A stretch of 63,050 bases of DNA from an uncultured Paraprevotella sp. Its GTDB lineage: Bacteria; Bacteroidota; Bacteroidia; Bacteroidales; Bacteroidaceae. Both the position numbers and the translations under genes were made by a program. Below the pieces are notes generated by a model that saw nothing but the letters and a program-made list of their open reading frames with translations, did no database searches and had not been told where the DNA came from. This document shows positions 36,997-63,050 of the stretch, piece after piece. The stretch lies in assembly GCA_944320775.1 (NCBI GenBank), contig CALUIV010000016.1, positions 1-63,050 of the forward strand. Reading direction: 5' to 3'. Numbering within the stretch: the first letter of the stretch is position 1; each line of letters opens with the position of its first letter.

Positions 36997-37069
36997 GCGT
37001 CCTTAGCTCAGTTGGTAGAGCAATTGACTCTTAATCAATGGGTCCAGGGTTCGAATCCCTGAGGGCGTA
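36997..37069 (+). tRNA. tRNA-Lys(CTT), copy 1
   Basis: Cloverleaf of 73 bases with anticodon CTT in loop CTCTTAA, D-arm GCTC, T-loop TTCGAAT and discriminator A73. CCA is not encoded. The acceptor stem ends in a G1-U72 wobble. Confidence 0.96.
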
Positions 37070-37099
37070 CAAAGAGATGAATCTTTTTAAAAAGTTGAT

Positions 37100-37172
37100 G
37101 CGTCCTTAGCTCAGTTGGTAGAGCAATTGACTCTTAATCAATGGGTCCAGGGTTCGAATCCCTGAGGGCGTA
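37100..37172 (+). tRNA. tRNA-Lys(CTT), copy 2
   Basis: Identical in sequence to copy 1 and offset by 103 bases. The 30-base spacer before it is repeated exactly before copies 3 and 4. Confidence 0.96.
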
Positions 37173-37202
37173 CAAAGAGATGAATCTTTTTAAAAAGTTG
37201 AT

Positions 37203-37275
37203 GCGTCCTTAGCTCAGTTGGTAGAGCAATTGACTCTTAATCAATGGGTCCAGGGTTCGAATCCCTGAGGGCGTA
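37203..37275 (+). tRNA. tRNA-Lys(CTT), copy 3
   Basis: Identical to copies 1 and 2, again at a 103-base offset. Confidence 0.96.
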
Positions 37276-37305
37276 CAAAGAGATGAATCTTTTTAAAAAG
37301 TTGAT

Positions 37306-37378
37306 GCGTCCTTAGCTCAGTTGGTAGAGCAATTGACTCTTAATCAATGGGTCCAGGGTTCGAATCCCTGAGGGCGTA
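37306..37378 (+). tRNA. tRNA-Lys(CTT), copy 4
   Basis: Identical to the other copies. The sequence after it departs from the repeat and runs into the array terminator. Confidence 0.96.
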
Positions 37379-37380
37379 CA

Positions 37381-48862: not shown

Positions 48863-51586
48863 ATGAGTGAAAAAAGAGTTTATACCTTCGGTAATGGTAA
48901 AGCTGAAGGTAAAGCAGACATGAGAAATCTTCTCGGTGGTAAAGGTGCCAATCTGGCAGAAATGAATTTAATCGGAGTGCCTGTGCCTCCTGGTTTTACA
49001 ATTACGACAGATGTTTGTAATGAATATTATGCAGTCGGTAAAGATAAAGTCGTAGAACTATTAAAAACCGATGTAGAGGCATCTGTAAAGCATATTGAAA
49101 GCTTGATGAACTGTACATTCGGAGATCCTAAGAATCCTTTGTTGGTTTCTGTGCGTTCTGGTGCTCGGGCTTCTATGCCGGGTATGATGGATACGATTTT
49201 GAATCTCGGTTTGAACGATGAGGTTGTAGAAGGTTTGGCTGCAAAAAGTGGTAATCCAAAGTTCGCTTATGATTCTTATCGTCGTTTTGTACAGATGTAT
49301 GGTGATGTTGTATTGGGTATGAAACCAGTCAACAAAGATGATATTGATCCATTTGAAGCTATAATTGAGCAGGTTAAGGAGAAACGTGGTGTTGTTCTGG
49401 ATAAAGATTTGAATCTGGACGAATTGAAGGAATTGGTAAAACTCTTTAAAGAAAGCATCAAGAAACAGACTGGTAAGGACTTCCCGAATGATCCAATGGA
49501 ACAACTTTGGGGTGCTATTTGTGCTGTATTTGATTCTTGGATGAATGAACGTGCAATTCTTTATCGTAAGATGGAAGGAATTCCTGCAGAATGGGGTACA
49601 GCCGTTAACGTACAGGCCATGGTATTCGGTAACTTAGGTGAAACTTCTGCAACAGGTGTATGTTTCAGCCGTGATGCTGCAACCGGTGAGAATCTGTTCA
49701 ATGGAGAATGGTTGGTTAATGCACAAGGTGAAGATGTTGTTGCCGGTATTCGTACTCCACAGCAGATTACGAAGATCGGTTCACAGCGTTGGGCTGCTCT
49801 TCAGGGTATTTCTGAGGAAGAGCGTGCTTCTAAATATCCTTCTATGGAAGAGGCTATGCCGGCAATTTATAAAGAATTGGATGAGTTGCAGACCAAGTTG
49901 GAGAATCACTATCGCGATATGCAGGATATGGAGTTTACTGTTCAGGATGGCAAACTTTGGTTCTTGCAGACACGTAACGGAAAGCGTACTGGTACGGCAA
50001 TGGTGAAGATTGCTATGGATTTGGTTCGTGAAGGAATGATCGACGAGAAGACAGCGTTGAAGCGTTGCGAGCCGAACAAACTTGATGAGTTGTTGCATCC
50101 GATTTTTGATAAGGAAGCGTTGAAGAAAGCCAAAGTTCTTACTCGTGGTTTGCCTGCTTCTCCGGGTGCTGCTTGTGGTCAGATTGTATTTTTTGCAGAT
50201 GATGCTGCTAAGTGGCATGATGATGGTCACCGTGTAATTATGGTGCGTATTGAGACATCTCCAGAAGATTTGGCTGGTATGACTGCTGCAGAGGGTATCC
50301 TGACCGCTCGTGGTGGTATGACTTCTCATGCTGCTGTGGTTGCTCGTGGTATGGGTAAGTGCTGTGTATCTGGTGCTGGTGCCATTAATGTAGATTACAA
50401 GAATAAGACCGTTGAAATCGAAGGTAAGGTATTTAAAGAAGGTGATTATATTTCTTTGAATGGTTCTACCGGTGAAGTTTATGCAGGGGAAGTTCCGACT
50501 AAGGCTGCTGAATTGAGTGGTGACTTTAAGGAATTGATGGATCTTTGTGATAAATATACCAAGTTGCAGGTTCGTACGAATGCGGATACACCACATGATG
50601 CTCAAATGGCACGTAGCTTTGGAGCGAAGGGTATTGGTTTGACCCGTACAGAGCATATGTTCTTTGATGGACAGAAGATTATCGCTATGCGCGAAATGAT
50701 TCTAAGCGATACGGTAGAAGGACGTGAAAAAGCTTTGGCTAAATTATTGCCATATCAGAAAGCTGATTTCAAGGGTATTCTTGAAGCTATGGATGGTTGT
50801 CCTGTGAATATTCGTCTGCTCGATCCTCCTTTGCACGAGTTCGTGCCTCATGATTTGAAGGGCCAGGAAACTATGGCTAAGGAAATGGGTATCAGCGTAG
50901 CTGAAATTCAGCGTCGTGTAGAAAGTCTTTGTGAGCACAACCCAATGTTGGGTCATCGTGGTTGCCGTTTGGGTATCACATTCCCTGAGATTACTGCTAT
51001 GCAGACTCGTGCTATTTTGAGTGCAGCTTGTGAATTGAAGAAAGAAGGTAAGAACCCGATGCCGGAAATCATGGTTCCGTTGATTGGTATCCTTTATGAG
51101 TTCAAGCAGCAGAAAGAAGTTATCATGAAGACTGCAGAGGAAGTATTTGCTGAGGAAGGTGTACGTATCGACTTTGAGGTTGGTACCATGATTGAGATTC
51201 CACGTGCAGCGTTGACAGCAGATAAGATTGCTTCAGAGGCTGAATACTTCTCATTTGGTACGAATGACTTAACTCAGATGACTTTTGGATACTCTCGAGA
51301 TGATATTGCTAGCTTCTTGCCTGCATATCTCGACAAGAAGATCTTAAAGGTAGACCCGTTCCAGGTATTGGATGAGAATGGAGTTGGTCAGTTGATCAAG
51401 ATGGCAGTAGAAAAAGGTCATGCCGTTCGCCCAGGTATGCGTACAGGTATTTGTGGCGAACATGGAGGTGAACCAAATTCAGTTAAGTTCTGCCATAAAG
51501 TAGGTATGAATTATGTGTCTTGTTCACCATTCCGTGTACCTATTGCACGTTTGGCTGCGGCGCAGGCTGCCGTTGAGGAAGCATAA
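48863..51586 (+). CDS. ppdK: Pyruvate, phosphate dikinase
   Basis: PPDK interconverts pyruvate, ATP and phosphate with PEP, AMP and PPi; in anaerobes it can save ATP in glycolysis. The 907-aa protein has the N-terminal ATP-grasp domain (VSVRSGARASMPGMMDTILN near 95-114), the swivelling His domain with GMTSHAAVVARGMGKCCV near 485-502, and the C-terminal TIM barrel with GLTRTEHMF near 592-600 and SFGTNDLTQMTFGYSRDD near 798-815. Codon use looks highly biased, as for an abundant enzyme. A terminator follows. Confidence 0.97.
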   Translation: MSEKRVYTFGNGKAEGKADMRNLLGGKGANLAEMNLIGVPVPPGFTITTDVCNEYYAVGKDKVVELLKTDVEASVKHIESLMNCTFGDPKNPLLVSVRSGARASMPGMMDTILNLGLNDEVVEGLAAKSGNPKFAYDSYRRFVQMYGDVVLGMKPVNKDDIDPFEAIIEQVKEKRGVVLDKDLNLDELKELVKLFKESIKKQTGKDFPNDPMEQLWGAICAVFDSWMNERAILYRKMEGIPAEWGTAVNVQAMVFGNLGETSATGVCFSRDAATGENLFNGEWLVNAQGEDVVAGIRTPQQITKIGSQRWAALQGISEEERASKYPSMEEAMPAIYKELDELQTKLENHYRDMQDMEFTVQDGKLWFLQTRNGKRTGTAMVKIAMDLVREGMIDEKTALKRCEPNKLDELLHPIFDKEALKKAKVLTRGLPASPGAACGQIVFFADDAAKWHDDGHRVIMVRIETSPEDLAGMTAAEGILTARGGMTSHAAVVARGMGKCCVSGAGAINVDYKNKTVEIEGKVFKEGDYISLNGSTGEVYAGEVPTKAAELSGDFKELMDLCDKYTKLQVRTNADTPHDAQMARSFGAKGIGLTRTEHMFFDGQKIIAMREMILSDTVEGREKALAKLLPYQKADFKGILEAMDGCPVNIRLLDPPLHEFVPHDLKGQETMAKEMGISVAEIQRRVESLCEHNPMLGHRGCRLGITFPEITAMQTRAILSAACELKKEGKNPMPEIMVPLIGILYEFKQQKEVIMKTAEEVFAEEGVRIDFEVGTMIEIPRAALTADKIASEAEYFSFGTNDLTQMTFGYSRDDIASFLPAYLDKKILKVDPFQVLDENGVGQLIKMAVEKGHAVRPGMRTGICGEHGGEPNSVKFCHKVGMNYVSCSPFRVPIARLAAAQAAVEEA

Positions 51587-51608
51587 ATAGTATAAGATAA
51601 TCATTAAT

Positions 51609-51657
51609 TTAGGCTGTAATGGACTGTTTTTCAGACATTACGGCCTAAGTTGTTTTT
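51609..51657 (+). terminator. ppdK terminator
   Basis: TTAGGCTGTAATG pairs with CATTACGGCCTAA (12 Watson-Crick pairs and one T/G wobble) around a 14-base loop, then GTTGTTTTT. It marks the end of core sequence before the island. Confidence 0.85.
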
Positions 51658-51707
51658 AGGCGGTTCGTGCATTTGTCCGCAAAAAATGAGCCAAATAAAC
51701 AGTACTT

Positions 51708-51760
51708 GCATACACCACGCATACACTCTTAAACAGTGGCGCATACACCAACGCATACAT
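51708..51760 (+). repeat. Four GCATACA motifs upstream of the integrase remnant
   Basis: GCATACA occurs at 51708, 51719, 51741 and 51753, in two copies of a GCATACACCA-(A)CGCATACA unit. Such direct repeats just upstream of a tyrosine recombinase gene are typical of arm-type recombinase binding sites. Their role is inferred from position. Confidence 0.7.
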
Positions 51761-51787
51761 TATTAGTAGGTTGTAAATCAATTTTAT

Positions 51788-53102
51788 ATGGCAGTATTTA
51801 AAGTAGTCGTAAGAAAAAAACTGACGGATTTTATCCAGTGTACATTCGTATTGTCCACCGTTCTAGAATGGGTAATATTAAAACCGATAAGCTCATTATG
51901 AACAAACAAATCATTAAGAATGGCGAAATCAAGGATATTGTGGCCAACGAATATTGTTCACGAGAGATCCTACGTTATAGTGATATGATAAACCGTAAGG
52001 GTATCTCAAATTATTCTGTTGCTGAATTAATTGAATTTCTTATCCGTTCAGATGAAAAAATATGCTTTAGTGACTATGCAACAAAGTTCATTAACCGTAT
52101 GTCCTCTGAAGGACATGAACGTAATGCTAAGAATTATCGCCTGGCTGTAAACTACCTCGAAAGATATTTGGGAACAACCTGAGTTATGTTTACTCACCTG
52201 TCATCTTCTGTTTTGACAAGATGGATTAATAGCCTTTCGTTGACGAACAGGGCGAAAGAAATGTACCCGACCTGTTTAAGACAGATATTCAAAAGGGCAC
52301 TTATAGAGCTGAACGATGAAGAACGTGGTATCGTGCGAATCAAATACAATCCTTGGTTAAAGGTATCCATTCCTAAATCTGACAGTACGGTTCAAAGAGC
52401 CATCTGTGCAGAGGCATGTAGGGAGTTTTTCAATCGTCCCTTATCGGAAACCAAAATGATTTCCTCTCTTCCGGAGCAGGGCAGAGACGTAGCACTTCTA
52501 TCCTTGTGTCTGGGCGGAATAAGCACCGTAGATATATTTGAACTTAAAAAAGAAAACTATAAGGATGGTATTATCGGATAAGAGCTAAGACAAAGCACAT
52601 CCGAAAAGATGAAACCTATATTGAGATGCGTGTTGAACCGTTTATTCAGCCTACATTTGACAAGTATCTTTCAGACGAGAATGATGAATATCTTTTCAAA
52701 TTCCATAAGCGTTACAGCAATCCGGACAGTTTCAATGCCAACGTAAATATTGGAATCAGAAAGATATGTGCCGATATGGGAATGAAGAAGGAGGATTACT
52801 ACTGTTATGATACTTTTCGTCATACATGGGCTACAATTGCCCAAAATGACTGTGATGCCAATCTGTATGAAGTTGCTTTTGGCATGAATCACAGTCATGG
52901 ACTGAATATAACAGGAGGCTATGTCAAGATAGACTTCACTCCTGCTTGGGAACTAAATGCCAAAGTGATTGACTTCATTTTCTTCAGCAGCAAGAAGAGC
53001 AAGCAAGGTAGGGCACGTGACTTCGAGACACCGGCAGACAAGATGTTCCGCATCAGTATAAGTTTCCTTTATAGAGAGAAGGGCGTCCACCATAATGACT
53101 GA
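51788..53102 (+). pseudogene. Tyrosine recombinase/integrase, broken by two frameshifts and a stop
   Basis: Joined across frames this is a Bacteroides-type phage integrase (N-terminal core-binding domain, then catalytic domain). ATG 51788 starts MAVFKVVVRKK; one base is missing in an A7 run at 51814-51820 (A8 would give RKKTDGFYPVYIR). An in-frame TGA at 52180-52182 cuts the core-binding domain. One base is missing near 52579, shifting GIIGY to the frame that holds RAKTKHIRKD. The catalytic FRHTWAT and final GGYVKIDF with Tyr are present. The C-terminus runs into the tail of the next gene and lacks the usual end, so the element lost sequence here. Confidence 0.9.
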
Positions 53103-54792
53103 TACATAATAAGTTTACCTCTCCGTCCCAGTCCGATTCTGTACTGAAGAATCCAAAAGAATCCGGTTCTGATATTACTGTAGCATAATTTATATGCTGA
53201 CCTATATAAGGTACTTGAGAAACAGACGGTTGTATTTGTATTTCAATACTACAATCATACTTCTCTTCCAGAAGTTCTTTATTTCTTTTTCCCGTTTTTC
53301 CGTCAATATCATCAACCTTACCCATCAATAAATCTTCAATCGTATCATATATTCCCATATTATTCCTAAACCATTCCTTTATCTCCTCATGAAAGCAAAG
53401 CTTAAGATTATCAAATGATACGACCTTCAATTTATATTTTGCTTTAGGAATATTAAGCATCATATCAGAAGGAACTTCACCCATGATATTACACTCGTCA
53501 ATGATGGATTTTAGAATATCTATTGTTGAAATCTCAAGTGTATCAACCAGTTTCAGAACTTCATTTTTCATTGATATATCACGAAGGTTATCATCTATCA
53601 CATCATTTATTGCACGAGTTGTCAAATTGGTAAACTCTTTGATATAACGTATTCTTCCGGGTCTGCCCAAAAGATTCTCATCTACAGACAATCTGTTTGT
53701 TGTAAGAATGTATAACTTACGCTTGCTATTATATACCCCATCTATCATTTTTAACAGAATCTCCCTGTCTTCATTGAAAGTCTTTTCGGCTTCGTCTATA
53801 AATATTACACACTCAAAATTAAGGGATTGTATAAATTCCAATATACCTTCCTGAGATTTGGAAATGATAACAACGGGCAAACCTATACGGTTGCTCAGAA
53901 TCTTTGCAGCTATAGTTTTCCCAGTTCCTTTCAATCCATTGAATATAACTCCAAGATTTTTGTTGCTTTCCTTAAAAATATCGGAAGTCCATGTCTTTAT
54001 AATTCGATTCATTATTTCATCACAATCCAAATCATAGATTTTGAAATCAAATACAAAAGAATCATCTATCTTTTCCAATCCCAATCTCTTAAAACGTGAA
54101 TCTTCATAAATTCTGAAAATACCTTCACCGGGGCTGGAATATAATGTTGCTGAACCAGGAATAGGATAATATATTCCACCCTCATTAATCCATTTTTGCT
54201 TCTCTGCCATAATAATAGAATCCAAATTGTTGTTTGAATTGTTTTCACTGAAGAAATCGTTCCTGTGTATAATATAAACTTCTAAGTCAGCAATCTCTCC
54301 ATAACCAGTAATACCACGCTGTCTTTCGATACCTTTATAAGTAAAACCATTCTTGATAGCTACTCTACGGGAAGAATCATTGCGAGGAAAAACTGTGATA
54401 ATCAAAGAGGAAGCTTGTTCTTTTTTAAACAGATATTCCTTCATAGCATAAACTGCTTCTGTCATATAACCTCTTCCACGGAATTCCTCATTCATAAAAT
54501 AACACAGTTCATAATCATTATCCACAAGTGAAGAAGAAACTCTAGTTATTATACTGTACTCTATCATACCTATAACATTAGATGGCGTTTCCTTAAGTGC
54601 AATAACAAACATATTACAATTTTCAATGCCTCTACGAATTTTACCTTCTGCCTCACTAGGATTGCTCATCGGACGAAAACCTGTATTTATTGCTGTGTGT
54701 TTATCACTCATCATAAGAAAGATATCATTTATATCTTCTTTCTCGGGTATTCTTACGATCAATCTTTCTGTCAATATTCTGCTTTTTTCCAT
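53053..54792 (-). CDS. GNAT acetyltransferase fused to AAA+ ATPase
   Basis: From ATG 54792 the protein is 579 aa; the further ATG at 54846 lies inside a hairpin and was rejected. Residues 1-185 are a RimJ/RimL-type GNAT domain with the acetyl-CoA motif RGRGYM at 105-110. Residues 196-579 are an AAA+ module: GLKGTGKT with Lys292, Walker B VIFIDEAEK with Asp333-Glu334, sensor LTTNR and GRPGRIRY as arginine-finger region. An internal Met near 196 (MAEKQKW) looks like the old start of a free AAA gene. The AAA part recalls phage-type AAA proteins. Function unknown; it lies in a recombinase-linked island beside a nuclease fusion. Confidence 0.85.
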   Translation of the reverse strand: MEKSRILTERLIVRIPEKEDINDIFLMMSDKHTAINTGFRPMSNPSEAEGKIRRGIENCNMFVIALKETPSNVIGMIEYSIITRVSSSLVDNDYELCYFMNEEFRGRGYMTEAVYAMKEYLFKKEQASSLIITVFPRNDSSRRVAIKNGFTYKGIERQRGITGYGEIADLEVYIIHRNDFFSENNSNNNLDSIIMAEKQKWINEGGIYYPIPGSATLYSSPGEGIFRIYEDSRFKRLGLEKIDDSFVFDFKIYDLDCDEIMNRIIKTWTSDIFKESNKNLGVIFNGLKGTGKTIAAKILSNRIGLPVVIISKSQEGILEFIQSLNFECVIFIDEAEKTFNEDREILLKMIDGVYNSKRKLYILTTNRLSVDENLLGRPGRIRYIKEFTNLTTRAINDVIDDNLRDISMKNEVLKLVDTLEISTIDILKSIIDECNIMGEVPSDMMLNIPKAKYKLKVVSFDNLKLCFHEEIKEWFRNNMGIYDTIEDLLMGKVDDIDGKTGKRNKELLEEKYDCSIEIQIQPSVSQVPYIGQHINYATVISEPDSFGFFSTESDWDGEVNLLCISHYGGRPSLYKGNLY

Positions 54793-54824
54793 AATACAAT
54801 TATTTATACGTAAATTTACAATAA

Positions 54825-54851
54825 AGGCTATGCCGATATAGAGCATAGCCT
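54825..54851 (-). terminator. Hairpin between the two island genes
   Basis: AGGCTATGC and GCATAGCCT form a perfect 9-bp stem around a 9-base loop. On the minus strand it is followed by TTATTGT, so it may end or weaken transcription from the nuclease-fusion gene before the GNAT-AAA gene. Confidence 0.6.
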
Positions 54852-54942
54852 GAAGAGAAATATTTTTCTATATAAGAAATTATACCATATATAAATATTG
54901 AAACTTGATTTTTTACATAAAAAACATAATATTTTAATACCA

Positions 54943-57366
54943 CTAAATATTTCTGAATGAATTTACAATCAACCCTAATTCTTTCTTTATTGCATTCAAT
55001 ACTTCGGAAACAAGCGCTTCTTCTTTGATTTGCTTGGATTGGTACAAGAATCTGTCTCCGTATTTATTAAAGTTCCGTATTTCATCTTTCCTTCTCCTAG
55101 CTATAATAGGTTCTTCTATATCTTTACATATATTGGGGAAATGAGCAGGTTTATCTATTGTAAACTGGAAAAAAGATATATTGTTTATACCTTCTTCTTC
55201 TTTTGTCATCTCCCATAACTGATTATAATTCCATTTGCCTTTTTTAATCCATTCTATCCCATGACAGTATCTGTTTCCTTGAATTTGGATTAATAGTACA
55301 TATTCTTTGTTGATTTTTATCTTGGCTTCAAGTAATCCTTGTCCGTGGGTAAATCCACAGTTTGTGAACACCTCGCACAAACATTTACTTTCATCTCTTC
55401 CTATGTCCTCTATATTCATTCCTGATATGATGTTATCCCATCTGTTATCTTCTTTCAAACAGGAATTCAATCGTTCCAGCAATTGAGAGTACCAGACTTT
55501 GTCCTGCAAGTCAGCTATACGTAAATCCTTGAATGCCTTTTTATCATTTTCAGGAATCAGAAAGCGGCTAGTGTTTTCTACTTTCCAACTCTTTGACAAT
55601 TCATGCAAAGTGGCAATGAATAAACAATAATCTTCTATCAGGTCATTTTCATAGAGATTGTGTATAAAATTATGCTTATTCTTCACAATGGCTTGCCATA
55701 AGTCCTCGTAACTTCTGATTTGCCATTTCATAGCATTTTCAATAGCCTGTTTATCAGGAAAGAGAGTGGATAAAGACAACAGAACCAAGTCTCTATTTTC
55801 ATTATCTTGTTTCTCTTTTTTGTTCAACTTGCCAACATATTCATCCAGCTGTAATTTAGACGGAATACTTTTTACCTTATTCTCAAGGACTAAGACTATA
55901 TTTCCATCTGCTTCAATACACAGATCGAAATTCATATACTCCCTCTTTACACTCCAATGAGTATTGGACCATCCTACTTTACATCCTAAATTCTTACATA
56001 TTTCAACAAAGAAATCTGGATATTGCTGTGCCATCCAACTTAGGAAATTGCTATGAAACAATTCTTTAGATGATAATGACAAATTAAATAATGGGGATGA
56101 TTGGAGTGCATTTTTCCTAATCAAAGGTATAACTACAGTTTTTATGATTTTTTCATCCAACCGATGTTCTCCTTCAAACCATTCTGCATTCTCATAAACA
56201 GATTTATATTCATTATACCCATGTACTAATGTATCTTTTGTACCAAACAAGCCATATGTATTTTTTCTATCAAAATCCAAAATACCATCAAACTGACAGG
56301 ATTCCAATTGTTGATAAGTATCGCATAGTTCTGAAGTTATTTCAAAATGAGTTTCTCCATCTCGGCGTGGATTTAGAAACTCCTGTCGTCCAATTATAGT
56401 ACGCATAAACTCAGAAACATGAAAAGCAGGATTTACCAATATCTTTTTATATCCTTTTAGTAATTGAGCAAACATTCCCCCCATGGAGGTTCCGACAATA
56501 AGTTCTGGATTTTTCTGTTTACATATGTCTTTCAACATCTCGTATGCTTCCTGTGGATTCACAGGTAGGTCTGGAGAGAGTATCTCATATTCCGGTAAAA
56601 GTCTACGTAATGTATATGCTGTTTCAGACATGCCAGAAGATGATAATCCATGTATGTATAAAAGTATCTTCCTAGGTAAATACATTGATATTTCAATTGT
56701 CTCATGGTTTAATATCAGGTTCGTAATATCGTATCCAGTCTCTTGAAAAGACACATATTTTATTAAACCTTCTATTCGTTCACCCTTACAATCATATTCA
56801 TATTGCTTAGAATACTCACCACGATGAATACACGCTAGTTTAACATCATACAAAACAGTCTTAGAGAGTTCCCTAAAGCTGTTAGTACTCAAATAATAGT
56901 TCTCTTCTGTTCGTAATCCTCTATTAAGTTGACTCAAGACTATTACTGAAATATCCAAATCTTTTGCCATTTTTTTCAAGCCATTCAAGATAGAGTGCAT
57001 TTCTCCATATCGGTCAGTCATAGAATCTTCTCCTCTTATCAACTGAATATAGTCCACAATAACATAATCAGGGAAAATACCTTCAATCTGCTTGCGTATA
57101 TGGCTCAAATTAATAATTTCTGCATTATCTATGAAAATTTTGTGTTTTACTTCATTATATCCGCTTTTACCTATTTGGAGTTTTATTCTTCTTACGAGTT
57201 GCTCTTCATCCATTTCACAAGAGAAATAAAAGCATTTATTGTTTTGTCTGGCAAGACTTATTGCCAAAGAGATAGCAAAAGTGGTTTTTCCCACAGCTGG
57301 ACAACCACCTACTAATGTAAGTTTTCCTTTTGAATAATTCTTCTTGATAAAATTTTCTGTAAACAT
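54943..57366 (-). CDS. DnaB-like ATPase / YqiA-like hydrolase / PD-(D/E)XK nuclease fusion
   Basis: The 807-aa protein has three whole modules. Residues 1-228 are a DnaB/RadA-type RecA-fold domain: Walker A GGCPAVGKTT (20-29), Glu51, Walker B YVIVDYIQLI (101-110) and VIVLSQLNRG (141-150). Residues 232-418 are a YqiA/UPF0227-like alpha/beta hydrolase with HG at 239-240, nucleophile Ser294 in GTSMGG, Asp378 and His401. Residues 430-807 are a PD-(D/E)XK nuclease (PDDEXK_4-like): Glu435, Asp481, Glu495-Asn-Lys497, Gln506 and Tyr510. All visible catalytic residues are kept. No signal peptide, so cytosolic. First gene of the island pair, 150 bases before the GNAT-AAA gene. Function unknown; defence is a hypothesis. 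Confidence 0.87.
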   Translation of the reverse strand: MFTENFIKKNYSKGKLTLVGGCPAVGKTTFAISLAISLARQNNKCFYFSCEMDEEQLVRRIKLQIGKSGYNEVKHKIFIDNAEIINLSHIRKQIEGIFPDYVIVDYIQLIRGEDSMTDRYGEMHSILNGLKKMAKDLDISVIVLSQLNRGLRTEENYYLSTNSFRELSKTVLYDVKLACIHRGEYSKQYEYDCKGERIEGLIKYVSFQETGYDITNLILNHETIEISMYLPRKILLYIHGLSSSGMSETAYTLRRLLPEYEILSPDLPVNPQEAYEMLKDICKQKNPELIVGTSMGGMFAQLLKGYKKILVNPAFHVSEFMRTIIGRQEFLNPRRDGETHFEITSELCDTYQQLESCQFDGILDFDRKNTYGLFGTKDTLVHGYNEYKSVYENAEWFEGEHRLDEKIIKTVVIPLIRKNALQSSPLFNLSLSSKELFHSNFLSWMAQQYPDFFVEICKNLGCKVGWSNTHWSVKREYMNFDLCIEADGNIVLVLENKVKSIPSKLQLDEYVGKLNKKEKQDNENRDLVLLSLSTLFPDKQAIENAMKWQIRSYEDLWQAIVKNKHNFIHNLYENDLIEDYCLFIATLHELSKSWKVENTSRFLIPENDKKAFKDLRIADLQDKVWYSQLLERLNSCLKEDNRWDNIISGMNIEDIGRDESKCLCEVFTNCGFTHGQGLLEAKIKINKEYVLLIQIQGNRYCHGIEWIKKGKWNYNQLWEMTKEEEGINNISFFQFTIDKPAHFPNICKDIEEPIIARRRKDEIRNFNKYGDRFLYQSKQIKEEALVSEVLNAIKKELGLIVNSFRNI

Positions 57367-57419
57367 AATCTATTTATTTTAATGTTTTAACCAATTATAC
57401 TCATTATAGTCGATAAATT

Positions 57420-57599
57420 TCATTTTTCTGAAACTTTTTTCAAATATTCATTGTTATTTGATTTATCTTTAAGTATTATGTGTATTTCATTAATAATATC
57501 CTCAGCAATGCTTTCTATCGTCTTATCCATTTTATTTAAACAGCATGCACTGTTATGGTCGTTCAGATCTCTAAGATTGACATATGGCTCTGTATATTT
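57420..57599 (-). other. Open frame, likely 3' remnant of a lost gene
   Basis: In the 363-base gap before the CoA-disulfide reductase gene, the minus strand keeps an open frame of 59 codons ending at 57420 but has no start codon until ATG 57530 (36 aa, MDKTIESIAEDIINEIH). The residues before that Met (EPYVNLRDLNDHNSACCLNK) look protein-like, so it may be the tail of a decayed gene upstream in the same island. It could also be a real 36-aa peptide. The rest of the gap is AT-rich with nothing recognised. Confidence 0.4.
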
Positions 57600-57729
57600 C
57601 TAAAATAACCAATTAAATCAATATATAGTTAAAAGCTATTAATGCATATGGACTATTAAAAATAAAATGTTTTATTTGCAAAAGTTTTCCTGTGGAAAAT
57701 ATTTATAGATTGAAATAAAAATCTTATTT

Positions 57730-60189
57730 ATGAAATATTTAATTGTAGGTGGAGTGGCTGGAGGAGCCACAGCTGCGGCAAGGATACGCAGAAATACAGA
57801 AAGTGCTGAAATTATTTTATTAGAGAAAGGGGCGTATATTTCGTATGCTAATTGTGGTTTACCATATTATATTGGTGGGGTAATTGATGATAGAAATAAA
57901 CTTTTCGTTCAAACTCCTGAAGCGTTTGGTAGAAGATTTCGTATTGATGTTCGAACAAATTCAGAGGTTATTTCGGTGGATACGAGAAATAAAACCGTGA
58001 CTGTGCGGACTACAGATAGTCGGACTTATTCAGAAACTTATGATAAATTATTGTTATCTCCTGGAGCCTCACCAGTTGTTCCGCCTTTACCAGGAATAAT
58101 GAGTAAAGGTATTTTTACTTTACGGAATGTTCAGGATACAGACCGGATAAAGCAATATATCCATAATCATGTGGTAAAACGCGCAGTAGTTGTCGGTGGT
58201 GGTTTTATTGGATTGGAAATGGCCGAGAATCTGAAACATGCGGGAATTGATGTTGCTGTAGTGGAAATGGCTGATCAGGTAATGGGGCCGATAGATTACT
58301 CAATGGCTGCACTTGTTCACGAGCATTTACGGCAACAAGGGATACGTCTTTATTTAAAACAAGCCGTATCATCCTTTCAAGAAGATGGAGCTACGTTAAA
58401 TATTAGTTTCCAGTCAGGAATCTCGCTTACTGCTGATTTGGTAATTTTATCTATTGGTGTGCGTGCAGAAACTAAACTGGCAGTAGAGGCAGGGTTAAAA
58501 TTGGGGGAAATGAAAGGTATATATGTTGATGAATATCTTCAGACGTCAGACCCTCATGTTTATGCTGTGGGCGATGCAATTGAATTTCCTCATCCGCTTA
58601 CAGGCAAACCTTGGCTAAATTTTTTGGCAGGACCGGCAAATCGTCAGGCACGTATTGTAGCCGATAATATGGTGTTTGGTAATCGGCTCAAATATGAAGG
58701 TTCTGTTGGTACGGCTATTGCCAAAGTTTTTGATATGACTGTTGCATCAACCGGACTTCCTGCTAAACGTCTGAAACAGCTGGGAATGCCTTATCTGTCA
58801 GCTACGATACATTCAGGAGCTCATGCCGGTTATTATCCAGGTGCATTGCAAATGGATATCAAGATTACATTTTCTCCTCAGGATGGACGTTTGTATGGTG
58901 CGCAGATTGTAGGATATGACGGTGTGGACAAGCGGATTGACGAATATGCTTTAATCTTGAAAAATGGTGGTACGGTTTATGATCTGACACGTTTGGAACA
59001 TGCTTATGCTCCACCTTTTTCTTCGGCTAAGGATCCTGTTGCTGTATCTGGTTATGTGGCAGGAAATATTTTGTCGGGAAAAATGACCCCATTGTATTGG
59101 CGTGAACTCCGGGATGCCGATCTTAGCCAAGTTACTTTGGTTGATGTCCGTACTTCCGATGAGTATGCTTTGGGACATTTATCCGGTTCCATAAATATTC
59201 CACTGGATGATATGCGTGACCGTTTACAGGAAATTCCATCAGATAAACCTGTATACGTCTATTGTGGTATTGGATTGAGAGGATATTTGGCTTCTAATAT
59301 TTTAAAAGAAAATGGCTTTCGGGAGGTTCGGAATTTAATTGGGGGCTTGAAAACATATAAAGCAGCTGTTGCAAAAGTTTGTATTCCTGATGAGGATGCA
59401 GATACATGTTTACGTGAAACGAGTCAGGCTTGTTCGTGCACTGCTGATGCAGATAAGATTAAGACGGTTAAGTTGGATGCTTGTGGTATGCAGTGTCCTG
59501 GGCCGATATTGAAATTAAAAAGTGCGATAGAAGAACTTAAACCGGGTGAACGGCTGGAAATATCCGCTACGGATGCCGGTTTCCCGAGAGATGCAGAGGC
59601 TTGGTGTCGGACTACTGGCAACCGTTTTGTTTCATCTGCATCTTCGGCAGGGATCCATCGTGTACTTGTTGAGAAAGCAACTTTATGTGCAGCCGAATCT
59701 GTTAAGCCGCAATCGGATGGTGATGGAAAATCATTTATTTTGTTTAGCGATGATTTGGATAAGGCTTTAGCTACATTTGTATTGGCCAACGGAGCTGCAG
59801 CAACTGGAAAAAAAGTTACTATATTCTTTACTTTCTGGGGATTGAATGCTATTAAAAAGGAACGGAAACCACGTGTCGAGAAAGATCTTTTTGGTAAAAT
59901 GTTTGGTATGATGTTGCCATCAAGTTCTCAGCATCTTAAACTTTCAAAAATGAATATGGGAGGAATCGGTTCCAAAATGATGAGATTTATCATGAAAAAT
60001 AAAGGTATAGAATCTTTGGAAACACTCAGACAGCAAGCAATTGATAATGGAGTAGAATTTATTGCATGTCAAATGTCTATGGATGTGATGGGGGTGAAGA
60101 AAGAAGAATTGCTCGATAATGTAACGATAGGCGGAGTAGCTACATACATGGATCGGGCAGAGCATGCTAATGTGAATTTGTTTATCTGA
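57730..60189 (+). CDS. CoA-disulfide reductase-rhodanese-TusA-DsrE multidomain protein
   Basis: The 819-aa protein joins four sulfur-handling modules. Residues 1-445 are an FAD/NAD-dependent CoA-disulfide/polysulfide reductase (FAD site GGVAGGATAAARIRR; active Cys43 in ISYANCGLPYY; NAD site VVVGGGFIGLEMAE near 153-166). Residues 453-550 are a rhodanese with Cys in VYCGIGLRG near 511. Residues 575-645 are TusA/SirA-like with CGMQCPGP near 581, and 665-819 are DsrE/DsrF-like. Together they suggest reduction and relay of persulfide sulfur. The MarR gene follows after 2 bases and is probably its regulator. Confidence 0.92.
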   Translation: MKYLIVGGVAGGATAAARIRRNTESAEIILLEKGAYISYANCGLPYYIGGVIDDRNKLFVQTPEAFGRRFRIDVRTNSEVISVDTRNKTVTVRTTDSRTYSETYDKLLLSPGASPVVPPLPGIMSKGIFTLRNVQDTDRIKQYIHNHVVKRAVVVGGGFIGLEMAENLKHAGIDVAVVEMADQVMGPIDYSMAALVHEHLRQQGIRLYLKQAVSSFQEDGATLNISFQSGISLTADLVILSIGVRAETKLAVEAGLKLGEMKGIYVDEYLQTSDPHVYAVGDAIEFPHPLTGKPWLNFLAGPANRQARIVADNMVFGNRLKYEGSVGTAIAKVFDMTVASTGLPAKRLKQLGMPYLSATIHSGAHAGYYPGALQMDIKITFSPQDGRLYGAQIVGYDGVDKRIDEYALILKNGGTVYDLTRLEHAYAPPFSSAKDPVAVSGYVAGNILSGKMTPLYWRELRDADLSQVTLVDVRTSDEYALGHLSGSINIPLDDMRDRLQEIPSDKPVYVYCGIGLRGYLASNILKENGFREVRNLIGGLKTYKAAVAKVCIPDEDADTCLRETSQACSCTADADKIKTVKLDACGMQCPGPILKLKSAIEELKPGERLEISATDAGFPRDAEAWCRTTGNRFVSSASSAGIHRVLVEKATLCAAESVKPQSDGDGKSFILFSDDLDKALATFVLANGAAATGKKVTIFFTFWGLNAIKKERKPRVEKDLFGKMFGMMLPSSSQHLKLSKMNMGGIGSKMMRFIMKNKGIESLETLRQQAIDNGVEFIACQMSMDVMGVKKEELLDNVTIGGVATYMDRAEHANVNLFI

Positions 60190-60191
60190 TT

Positions 60192-60554
60192 ATGGAAAAG
60201 ATACCTTGTATCTGTATGATGAGTGATTTGTGTAGAGCCATGGCCGAATTGGAAAACAATCTCACAATCATATATGATATTTCCCTGAATGAGGCTATGG
60301 TGTTATGTTGTATTGGAGGAGATCGGGTGGCAGCAGGTGAGATTGCGCAAACAACAAGGCTGAAGGCCTCCCATCTTTCAAAAGTGCTTAGATTATTGGA
60401 AGATAAAGGTTTCCTTCAACGAGATCTTGGTGAACGGGATAAACGTCAAATGTATTTTTCACTTACTAATGAAGGAACTCTTTGTCTGACCCGCTTAAAA
60501 CAAGAGGGTTTGCCGATTCCTGAATTTCTTGGAAAATTATTTGAGGGTAGTTAG
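60192..60554 (+). CDS. MarR-family regulator
   Basis: The 120-aa winged-helix protein has the MarR recognition helix region TTRLKASHLSKVLRLLEDKG near residues 54-73 and the wing DLGERDKRQMYFSLTNEG near 79-96. It is short for the family. It is co-transcribed with the persulfide-handling gene. The visible Cys (CICMMSDLC, CCIGG) could sense sulfur or redox state, but this is only a suggestion. Confidence 0.88.
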   Translation: MEKIPCICMMSDLCRAMAELENNLTIIYDISLNEAMVLCCIGGDRVAAGEIAQTTRLKASHLSKVLRLLEDKGFLQRDLGERDKRQMYFSLTNEGTLCLTRLKQEGLPIPEFLGKLFEGS

Positions 60555-60604
60555 ACAGGCATTAATGACTATTCTGAAAAGTTACAGATTGTCATATAAT
60601 ACCT

Positions 60605-60651
60605 AAAGGGATCGTATCATTAATACAATATTTGATACGATCCCTTTTATC
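60605..60651 (+). terminator. Terminator after the MarR gene
   Basis: AAAGGGATCGTATCA pairs perfectly with TGATACGATCCCTTT over 15 bases with a 13-base loop, followed by TATCTTTT. The rest of the 309-base gap (60555-60863) is AT-rich with a candidate promoter at 60767. Confidence 0.88.
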
Positions 60652-60766
60652 TTTTAGGGTGTCTTGGTTTTAAATTATTGGCTGGTTTCTTAAAAATGTT
60701 TTTTTGCTTGCTTTATTTTTTCGTAAATAAACATCTTATATTTTAAAAGTGGCGATAAAAATATTG

Positions 60767-60774
60767 TATCTTTG
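60767..60774 (+). promoter_or_regulatory. Candidate -7 element TATCTTTG
   Basis: Exact consensus, about 90 bases before the nucleotidyltransferase ATG. The -33 position has no clear TTTG. Confidence 0.5.
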
Positions 60775-60863
60775 AAAAGGAATATATGTATATACGAGAT
60801 CTGAGGTGAAATGATTAAATAATGTTTGTCTCAGAATATTTGTACATCAATAACTAGAGTAGA

Positions 60864-61535
60864 ATGAGCAGTAAGATGGATATTAAAGAATGGTTGGCAC
60901 AGTTTCAGGAGAAATTGAAATGCAGTTTTGGCGACCGTTTGCGTTTTTTCGGTTTACAGGGCAGTTTCGGACGGGGTGAGCCGACGGATACGAGCGACAT
61001 CGATGTCGTTGTTATTCTGGATCAGGTGTCCTTTGTTGACTTGCAACGTTATCGGGAAATGTTGGATCGGTTGGAGTTTCGCGAGCGTATTTGCGGTTTC
61101 GTTTCCGGAGAAGGTGAACTGGTTCATTGGGAAAAATCTGATCTGATCCAGCTTTTTCTGGACACAAAACCAATTATCGGTTCATTAAAACATCTTCATT
61201 CGTTGTTTTCTGATGAAGACATCCGTCGGGCTGTATTAACTGGTGCCGGCAATCTTTATCATGCCTGTTCTCACAACTTTCTTCATAAACAAGATTGGGA
61301 TGTGCTTGTCGGGCTTTACAAAGCAGCCCGTTTTACGGTTCGGATGAAGTATTTGTGGGAAACTGGTTCTTACGTTTCTACCATGCAGCTTCTTAAAGAG
61401 AAAATGTCCGGACCAGATCGTCAGATACTGGAATTGGCGGCTGTTATTGCAGAAGAGTCATCAGACGTGGAGTTCAATTATTACAGTCAGAAATTGCTGG
61501 AGTGGTCCAGTCATACGATTCAAGACTTGGAGTAA
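60864..61535 (+). CDS. Nucleotidyltransferase-domain protein
   Basis: The 223-aa protein has the pol-beta-type motif GSFGRGEPTDTSDIDVVV near residues 33-50 (GSxGRG then DxD) and a helical C-terminal domain near 120-215. It resembles Bacteroidales proteins annotated as nucleotidyltransferase or aminoglycoside-type adenylyltransferase, but the substrate is unknown. The C-terminal part may be HEPN-like; that would need a profile search. It is 31 bases upstream of the esterase start. Confidence 0.75.
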   Translation: MSSKMDIKEWLAQFQEKLKCSFGDRLRFFGLQGSFGRGEPTDTSDIDVVVILDQVSFVDLQRYREMLDRLEFRERICGFVSGEGELVHWEKSDLIQLFLDTKPIIGSLKHLHSLFSDEDIRRAVLTGAGNLYHACSHNFLHKQDWDVLVGLYKAARFTVRMKYLWETGSYVSTMQLLKEKMSGPDRQILELAAVIAEESSDVEFNYYSQKLLEWSSHTIQDLE

Positions 61536-61566
61536 TGCTTTTGTATATCAATTCTATGTTGTTGAG

Positions 61567-62784
61567 ATGATGATACATCGGTTCTGGTCTTTTTTATTTG
61601 TATTCTTACTTTCTTGCTCAGTCTGGGCAGCAAGGGAAGATACGCTGTATACACTTACTTTGTGCGGTAAAATCCGAGGCTATGTGCTTTATGTTCCCGA
61701 TAGTCTCGAGCGTCCGGCTTTGGTCTTCTCCTTGCACGGTGCTGCCGGCCATGCTACTGACCGGTCTCCCTTTCGTACAACAGTGGCTGATGAGCAGGGA
61801 TGTATTGTGGTGTATCCGCAAGGCGATGAGCAGTTCTTTCCTGTTTTCGGCGGACGCGTTCCCGGTTGGAATGCTTCTGGAGAACCAAATGCAGATCTGG
61901 AATTCTTCAAGGCGATTATTGAGGAAGTTGCTTTGCGTTATCCTATAGACCGTTCGCGCATCTATTGTTGTGGCTTTTCCAACGGAGGTATGATGACCTA
62001 TTCCAATGCCGGTACTGCGGCCGATATCTTTGCCGCTTTTGCTTCCATCAGTGGTTTTCCGTTGAATGAATTCCACCACCGTCCGATGGGCGTTCGTCCT
62101 GTTCCGTTTTTGCATATTCATGGAAAGAACGACGGTTTTGTAAAGTATGCCTGTATGCCGGTTATCTGTGATAATATGGTAGCGCGAAACGGATGTTTTC
62201 CTGTGCCGGAAATAAAGGTTGAGTCGGGCAAGTACCGTCGTCAGATCTATAAGGCCGGTCCGGGTGGTTTTCCTTTCGTCTATTATGAAATAGACGGGAT
62301 GGGCCATAGCGATTTCACTGACCGTACCCCTGAAGGCAATTCGGCTTTAACCATGTGGAACTTCATGAGCCGGTATGCATTGACCGATTCTTGCGACAGC
62401 ACTTTGAAATGGCGGCTTAATGTTGATACCAAAGGATTCAGACCGGAAAAACACGGCTGGACCGTAAGTTCGGATTCGATACGTTTTTCTTATGGAATCT
62501 CCTCACAAGAGCCTCTCGCAGACAATAATGTTTATCCTGCCCTGACATTGGAAAAAGGAGACTATATGCTTTGTTTTGAGGCTACAGGAGATAAAGAACA
62601 TAATATACATGTCTGTATGGAAACGCTCGACGGGCATTCGGTCTTGTTTTATAAATCCGCTCCTGTTGGGCAGAAGGTCATGATACCTTTTTCTGTATTC
62701 GACTATACGGAATGCCGGCTGACGATCGTAAAAACTTCGGCTTCAGATAAATTCCTTGATTTTTCAGTACATGCTGTAATTTGA
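61567..62784 (+). CDS. Secreted PHB-depolymerase-type esterase
   Basis: From ATG 61567 (or 61570) the protein is about 405 aa with a signal peptide ending near WAA. The first 40 residues of the longer frame from 61447 lie inside the previous gene and were rejected. The alpha/beta hydrolase core has VFSLHGAAGHATD near 49-61, nucleophile Ser in CCGFSNGGMMTYS near 137-149, IHGKNDGFVK near 196-205 and GMGHSD near 247-252. It matches the LpqC/PHB depolymerase family, often feruloyl or acetyl-xylan-type esterases. The C-terminal part is a separate beta-rich domain. Confidence 0.83.
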   Translation: MMIHRFWSFLFVFLLSCSVWAAREDTLYTLTLCGKIRGYVLYVPDSLERPALVFSLHGAAGHATDRSPFRTTVADEQGCIVVYPQGDEQFFPVFGGRVPGWNASGEPNADLEFFKAIIEEVALRYPIDRSRIYCCGFSNGGMMTYSNAGTAADIFAAFASISGFPLNEFHHRPMGVRPVPFLHIHGKNDGFVKYACMPVICDNMVARNGCFPVPEIKVESGKYRRQIYKAGPGGFPFVYYEIDGMGHSDFTDRTPEGNSALTMWNFMSRYALTDSCDSTLKWRLNVDTKGFRPEKHGWTVSSDSIRFSYGISSQEPLADNNVYPALTLEKGDYMLCFEATGDKEHNIHVCMETLDGHSVLFYKSAPVGQKVMIPFSVFDYTECRLTIVKTSASDKFLDFSVHAVI

Positions 62785-62808
62785 GGTTATAATACGACTT
62801 GATTCGAT

Positions 62809-63050
62809 ATGGTACAATTTATGAATATTGAGATTAACCGATGGGAACTTGTTTTGGATGAACGGTTTTCCAAACATCAGATATTACAGTTGGCAGAGAC
62901 TCTGCATCACGATGAGGCCGGTATATCCGACGTGTGCCGCACGATGCTTTATGCCACTCGTGTCCGTTCTTCTTATAATGCGGCCTGGATTCTGCATCAT
63001 CTTGCTACCGCCGACAAAAAGATTTATCTCAAGGATTGGTTTCCTGTGAT
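62809..63050 (+). CDS. Hypothetical protein, 3' end beyond window
   Basis: The frame from ATG 62809 (or ATG 62821) stays open to the window end, giving 80 residues (MVQFMNIEINRWELVLDERF start). The content, with helical NAAWILHHLATADKK near residues 62-76, suggests alpha-helical repeats of HEAT type. I do not recognise a named family. The overlapping frame at 62828 has improbable composition and was not chosen. The esterase ends 24 bases before it. Confidence 0.55.
   Translation, partial: MVQFMNIEINRWELVLDERFSKHQILQLAETLHHDEAGISDVCRTMLYATRVRSSYNAAWILHHLATADKKIYLKDWFPV

Follow-up and report, generated by a model that had tools for sequence, protein, structure and literature searches.

A DnaB-like ATPase, an esterase and a PD-(D/E)XK nuclease fused in one Paraprevotella protein belong to a modular, patchily distributed gene set of Bacteroidales

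The stretch of DNA analyzed here, hereafter the window, comprises positions 1 to 63,050 of contig CALUIV010000016.1 from an uncultured Paraprevotella sp. (assembly GCA_944320775.1). It encodes an 807-residue protein in which a DnaB-like RecA core, a UPF0227/YqiA-like esterase and a PD-(D/E)XK nuclease form a single chain (Table 1). We find that this fusion gene is part of a modular set of Bacteroidales genes with a patchy distribution, and that in some loci the set lies near genes for WYL, DprA-like, metallophosphoesterase-like and RtcB-like or PrfH proteins. Judging from the sequences, the set may supply an accessory effector for genome conflict (anti-phage or anti-plasmid) or for a damage response, with ATPase modules gating the nuclease, a tentative reading to which we give slightly less than an even chance.

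If three enzymes share a chain in one genome, do they keep company in others? The join between the DnaB-like module and the esterase occurs in frame in a 416-amino-acid gene of locus L128, from a Phocaeicola metagenome-assembled genome. There, a PDDEXK_4 nuclease gene of another subtype begins within the stop codon of the 416-amino-acid gene (ATGA, a 4-base overlap) and is followed by a gene for a GNAT-AAA protein, which is also the downstream partner of the fusion gene in the window. The esterase–nuclease join occurs in frame at the same point in L088 (genome G651), with a nuclease of the window type whose remainder lies in another frame. Elsewhere the parts are separate genes: L120 (genome G069, of the same genus as the host genome) has the order esterase, nuclease (again with an ATGA overlap), GNAT-AAA, DprA-like, with the nuclease and DprA-like genes interrupted, and L123 (genome G154) has the order metallophosphoesterase-like, GNAT-AAA, DprA-like, triad-less esterase relative, DnaB-like. 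This pattern of parts fused in some genomes and adjacent in others, the Rosetta-stone pattern, is our main evidence for a shared function, and it supports an earlier note on this DNA, which had proposed that the three parts are coupled. The same note had judged that the modules meet where free proteins would naturally end and start, a view borne out by L128 and L088, and had raised the possibility that the frame is an assembly join of three genes. The recurrence of both joins in other genomes excludes an assembly join or a frameshift artefact.

The gene is a single frame of 807 codons (54943-57366) that starts with ATG and has no internal stops; a composition calculation at the gene's guanine-plus-cytosine (GC) content of 33% puts the probability that such a frame arises by chance at about 1e-27. 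Matches to the Pfam families DnaB_C (9e-27), UPF0227 (1.4e-10) and PDDEXK_4 (2.1e-10) all exceed the curated cut-offs and, with the motifs read in the translation, confirm the three modules and catalytic residues of the earlier note, whose coordinates were also correct; the strand, which it left unstated, is minus. When codons of the DnaB-like module and esterase were compared with L128, and those of the esterase and the first 191 of the nuclease with L088, third positions varied most and second positions least in all four comparisons. Since change is in excess at third positions throughout, the modules look constrained.

The DnaB-like module shares with the DnaB replicative helicase its match to DnaB_C, the order of the RecA core and both Walker motifs (A, residues 20-29, GGCPAVGKTT; B, residues 101-110, including D105), and profiles of DnaB, RadA and RadB all match it. 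It differs from the helicase in several respects. The DnaB N-terminal domain is absent from all three members of the group (window, L128 and L097, the last being the same locus as L123), as is the RNG motif, which is present in each of five DnaB sequences compared and which we take to be the arginine finger of the DnaB hexamer. Relative to these five sequences, the module is also about 20 residues shorter ahead of the Walker B half and has an altered DLRESG motif. Because the RNG motif and these residues are missing, translocation is unlikely, which argues against the DnaB-type translocase envisaged in the earlier note; the module is more likely a degraded helicase that serves as an ATP switch. 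Fused to the esterase in L128, it is a separate gene in L097/L123. This unfused protein ends in a different C-terminal part of about 128 amino acids (L097:9776-10172) that resembles the FtsZ C-terminal domain by eye, Pfam having returned only DnaB/RecA-type families.

The esterase resembles YqiA/YcfP (UPF0227) in its family match (PF05728, 41.8 bits against a gathering score of 21 bits) and its intact triad, S294/D378/H401, but differs in lying inside a multi-enzyme chain and far below YqiA equivalog status (NF008291, 49.8 bits against a cut-off of 252 bits). Esterase activity has been reported for a Pseudomonas enzyme of the YqiA/YcfP family (PMC13230378). Relatives of solved structure are 4fle and 9bi7, and the nearest relatives are 61-67% identical. 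The triad is kept in five of six aligned esterases (window, L128, L120, L088 and L051) and lost in the L097 relative, a possible pseudoenzyme within the same operon. The relatedness of L097-type copies is based on tblastn with the window esterase (E 8.9e-5 in L123, 1.7e-5 in L129), as alignment A5 contains the L097 row and comparison with it is circular. Esterase relatives adjoin DprA-like genes at L097:8620-9099, L126:4131 and L129:9942. In a tree, the window, L128, L088 and G069 esterases cluster with one free esterase (G013) with weak support (87/89).

Esterases of this family are not confined to the set. In Bacteroidaceae genomes some stand alone and others are joined to an NT5C-like or a gp30.3/NADAR-like domain, as detected by Pfam for some loci and tblastn for others, which argues against the earlier note's view of YqiA-like esterases as unusual partners. 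Fusions to a gp30.3/NADAR-like or an NT5C-like domain were seen in L033, L034 and L038 and in L036, L037 and L039-L045, respectively.

The nuclease carries the catalytic set D481, E495-x-K497 and Q506. These residues and N496 (D63/E77/N78/K79/Q88 of the aligned segment) are invariant in all six aligned relatives, one of which is partial. The module scores 41.3 bits against PF14281 (gathering score 22.3 bits), a family that matches five of the six members of nuclease alignment A3 at E 0.01; its C-terminal part has no Pfam match. In PADLOC-DB it matches the candidate PDC-S26 (8.8e-10) over profile positions 95-204 of 397 only, and the L128 nuclease matches most of PDC-S26 (6.1e-112, over 11-410 of 413). 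What sets the nuclease here apart from PDC-S26 as such is its tie to an esterase, by fusion or by gene overlap, and the presence of a DnaB-like module and GNAT-AAA next to it. Two nuclease subtypes, both matching PF14281 and PDC-S26, occupy the same slot beside the partner genes; their kinship is indicated by hhalign (E 3.1e-5, probability 72.9). The window type also stands alone, for example on a Paenibacillus plasmid.

Structure prediction, which the earlier note had proposed as a check for a PD-(D/E)XK fold, gave a partial answer. The order of core elements in the low-confidence nuclease model (helix-strand-strand-strand-helix-strand) fits this fold, but the model, built from a two-row alignment, is too poor to serve as proof (mean predicted local distance difference test score, pLDDT, 45.9), and that of the whole fusion, from three rows, has a mean pLDDT of 43.0. 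Several known nucleases, such as EndoMS, MspJI, HindIII and LmuA, were among the top matches of a fold search with the nuclease model, all of them weak and mixed with unrelated proteins; the best E value was 0.039, with none under 0.001. When the nuclease alignment was searched as a profile against the PDB, no match came up at E values as high as 1. No conclusion rests on these models.

The GNAT-AAA protein links the loci further: in L128, L120, L123 and L124, its gene lies next to one or more genes of the other three types (DnaB-like, esterase, nuclease). Solved-structure relatives of its GNAT part include ribosomal-protein-S5-alanine acetyltransferase and MccE. A scan of a collection of species genomes with the GNAT-AAA alignment yielded 41 loci; the GNAT part is present in 17 of them, and 24 have the AAA part only. 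Neighbors were sought by tblastn at 1e-4 in fetched flanks of up to 8 kb, several shortened by contig ends, with queries from the window, from L097, from L109 (the same locus as L120) and, for two domains seen fused to the esterase, from L034 and L037. Near the 17 GNAT-AAA loci, we found metallophosphoesterase-like (7), WYL (5) and DprA-like (5) genes, L097-type esterase relatives (3), L109-type PDDEXK_4 nucleases (3) and DnaB-like genes (2). Near the 24 AAA-only loci were three WYL genes and one DprA-like gene, and no metallophosphoesterase-like, esterase, nuclease or DnaB-like gene was detected.

Several of these neighbors are of types found in defense. WYL proteins have been linked to defense loci (PMC4012209), and the L124 WYL protein matches the PADLOC-DB WYL model (1.1e-28). 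The L097 metallophosphoesterase-like protein matches PDC-S10 (8.3e-79), its match to NCBIfam YfcE falling under the cut-off; the L097 DprA-like protein matches ShosA (5.6e-60) and PsyrA (4.5e-29); and a further L097 protein, DUF262-like by reading, matches the Orf5, HEC-06 and SspE models. The defense context suggested by the earlier note is supported only in part: such neighbors occur in relatives, and in the window between 50000 and 63050 the only mobility sign read is a probable broken recombinase. RtcB-like genes also recur near GNAT-AAA in four of the 17 loci and PrfH-like genes in three, at L126:4564-6416 (+), L129:10429 and 11649 (+), L130:11422 and 12627 (+) and L132:4314 (-). The L126 PrfH exceeds its cut-off (175 versus 166.65 bits), and the L126 RtcB-like protein is under all NCBIfam cut-offs and, from its sequence, may represent a divergent group. 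A protein of about 309 amino acids is encoded between the metallophosphoesterase-like gene and GNAT-AAA in four of the 17 loci (L126:868-1797, L129:6772, L130:6932 and L132:6939); no NCBIfam family matches the copy in L126.

The distribution of the parts is patchy. The whole protein was searched against 251 genomes of the family and 395 of the phylum, each set including the host genome, with the best four or two candidates per genome scored; matches at 1e-10 came from 220 and 70 genomes, respectively. Among the matches listed, which were ordered by E value, the best after the window itself (E 0) were to single modules (2.3e-81 and 2.5e-79), and those in the family were mostly to the esterase, those in the phylum mostly to DnaB. 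A pattern scan of genome contigs with the fusion found no relative. Of 301 family genomes (own included), eight had the nuclease module at 1e-3, four the DnaB-like module at 1e-16 and 10 GNAT-AAA at 1e-15: both parts in six, among them an interrupted G126 copy that is cut by a contig end, AAA alone in three and GNAT alone in one. A three-row model of the DnaB-like module matched 161 of 399 genomes at 1e-25, and the subfamily proper (E < 1e-100) was confined to two of these, the window and G154; next came G686 (1.5e-35), and further listed matches look mostly like ordinary DnaB by frame length and score. On the recurrence of the fusion, which the earlier note had proposed as a check, the outcome is divided: each of the two joins occurs elsewhere, but all three modules in one gene were seen in no other genome searched.

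An origin in known phages or plasmids was considered and rejected, as tblastn with the fusion gave matches in 510 records of phages and 926 of plasmids, but no record covers 80% of it; the first-ranked plasmid match is the lone Paenibacillus nuclease, with 30.1% identity over 47% of the query. In IMG/VR, scans found four loci for GNAT-AAA, one of them a clear relative (of the AAA part), one distant relative for the nuclease, at least four distant ones for the DnaB-like module and none for the fusion.

How might the parts work together? We infer that the target would be nucleic acid and the purpose defense: the products of the fusion gene, GNAT-AAA and the related set would act together in one complex, with the PD-(D/E)XK module as the effector that cuts nucleic acid in response to a phage or other invader. 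The degraded DnaB-like module would bind ATP and serve as a switch or docking part, without helicase function, and GNAT-AAA would be a second ATPase that senses or remodels. The esterase may have a regulatory role, binding a small acyl-type group or taking it off, and in some loci a relative, triad-less in one case, stands in its place. One version of this scheme, which we regard as a long shot, is a writer–eraser pair in which GNAT adds an acyl mark (on the nuclease, an aminoacyl-tRNA or a nucleotide) and the alpha/beta hydrolase removes it; the two ATPase modules would read this mark, which would restrain the nuclease until an invader or ribosome damage upsets it, and the triad-less esterase relative would be a reader only.

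A number of findings weigh against a conflict or damage-response effector. The complete fusion is present in one genome only among those searched, the esterase is common in the host family, and no copy of the set was found in the IMG/VR scans with the fusion, GNAT-AAA, nuclease and DnaB-like module. The window-type nuclease was found at none of the 17 GNAT-AAA loci (tblastn, 1e-4), and the esterase detected with the window query, present at seven, includes two weak matches, one partial match and two on the opposite strand. At eight of the 17 loci, no query found a match (some flanks are short, and L116 begins at a contig end); GNAT-AAA may therefore function by itself. The counts for L123 and L120 partly reflect the origin of the queries in these same loci, and several loci are closely related to each other. 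Finally, the labels PDC-S26 and PDC-S10 denote candidates.

The RtcB-like and PrfH neighbors make a response to translation or RNA damage the strongest rival; in this reading, GNAT and the esterase would act on acyl or aminoacyl groups, such as those of charged tRNA, together with ribosome repair of the RtcB-PrfH type. RtcB2-PrfH shields E. coli from colicin E3 (PMC9223846), and the E. coli pair as described in the abstract comes without a nuclease or esterase. The solved relatives of GNAT would suit such a role, as would the L126 PrfH that passes its cut-off. Nevertheless, we consider this explanation unlikely: neither gene was found near L128 or L120 or read among the window open reading frames from 50000 to 63050, L123 also lies outside the RtcB/PrfH clusters, the L126 RtcB-like protein meets no family cut-off, and RNA repair leaves the PD-(D/E)XK nuclease unexplained. 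It is also possible that the DnaB/RadA-like ATPase, DprA-like protein and nuclease form an accessory set for DNA repair or recombination that processes DNA ends or incoming DNA. The DnaB, RadA and RadB profile matches and the DprA-like genes at five of 17 loci are compatible with this, as is the nuclease itself, but the RecA core's loss of its RNG motif and of a portion of the DnaB chain speaks against it, and patchiness and swapped nucleases suit conflict better than core repair; we therefore rate this as improbable. There remains the chance joining of three ordinary genes, with no shared function, by insertion beside a decayed recombinase. Although the full fusion has been seen here only, a probable broken recombinase adjoins it and the esterase is common in the family, each join was found once more in another genus, the separate forms are adjacent, with 4-base overlaps in two loci, and all three modules look constrained, making coincidence very improbable.

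The conflict or damage-response effector also has partial parallels among known systems. It shares with ShosTA and PsyrTA a DprA-like neighbor that matches ShosA and PsyrA, present in L097, but no DprA-like gene was seen among the open reading frames read beside the window's pair. Polyvalent proteins of phages and conjugative elements likewise carry many enzyme domains per chain, with RecA-type SMS/RadA in Bacteroidetes among them (PMC5512222). The window gene differs in that its contig looks chromosomal and it has a partner gene of its own, and a word search of the text of that paper found neither 'UPF0227' nor 'YqiA' nor 'hydrolase'. We found no account of the combination among the titles and opening abstract lines searched in the open literature, with subscription papers and preprints mostly outside our scope; it unites known enzyme families with a candidate defense nuclease in an architecture for which we found no account. 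If this is a conflict system, it would combine an ATP switch descended from a replicative helicase with an esterase, a swappable PD-(D/E)XK nuclease and GNAT-AAA in gut-type Bacteroidales. As a two-gene set with most parts on one chain, it offers a handle on UPF0227 functions beyond esterase activity and on PDC-S26 nucleases.

Table 1. Features of the fusion gene, its partner and the adjoining probable recombinase remains in the window
Feature	Position	Strand	Basis
Triple-fusion gene, 807 residues: DnaB-like RecA core + UPF0227/YqiA-like esterase + PDDEXK_4 nuclease	54943..57366	minus	open frame, translation, Pfam
Module 1, residues 1-232, DnaB_C-like RecA core	56671..57366	minus	Pfam, alignment with DnaB
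Module 2, residues 233-421, UPF0227/YqiA-like alpha/beta hydrolase	56104..56670	minus	Pfam, triad alignment
Module 3, residues 422-807, PD-(D/E)XK nuclease (PF14281; PADLOC-DB label PDC-S26)	54946..56103	minus	Pfam, PADLOC-DB, alignment
Downstream partner GNAT-AAA	53053..54792 (frame readable from 54846)	minus	Pfam, alignment A1
GNAT acetyltransferase domain	about 54208-54792	minus	Pfam
AAA+ ATPase domain	about 53053-54207	minus	Pfam
Probable tyrosine recombinase remains, disrupted by stops or frame changes, with open pieces (three) at 51838, 52186 and 52626	51790..53104	plus	open reading frames, family match of piece 1

Within the window, the fusion and GNAT-AAA genes look like a small acquired island. 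The GC content of the pair is 30-35%, that of the adjoining recombinase pieces is 37-39%, and further out it is about 36-47%. The pieces probably derive from a broken tyrosine recombinase; the first matches Phage_int_SAM_5 at E 0.0045, which is under the cut-off, and the second and third are assigned by reading alone. No convincing repeats flank the island, and an empty site could not be defined: when the regions after ppdK from four same-genus loci were compared with the window, the match stopped near the ppdK end (at 51570-51580 in three and at 51696, close to its contig end, in L182).

Genes of the window were read from 50000 to 63050, and the remainder was scanned for tRNA genes alone. On the plus strand at 57730-60189 lies an 819-amino-acid chain with, by reading, CoA-disulfide reductase, rhodanese, TusA-like and DsrE-like parts. 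Four tRNA-Lys (CTT) genes stand in a row at 36997-37379 (+), with a regular spacing of 103 bases.

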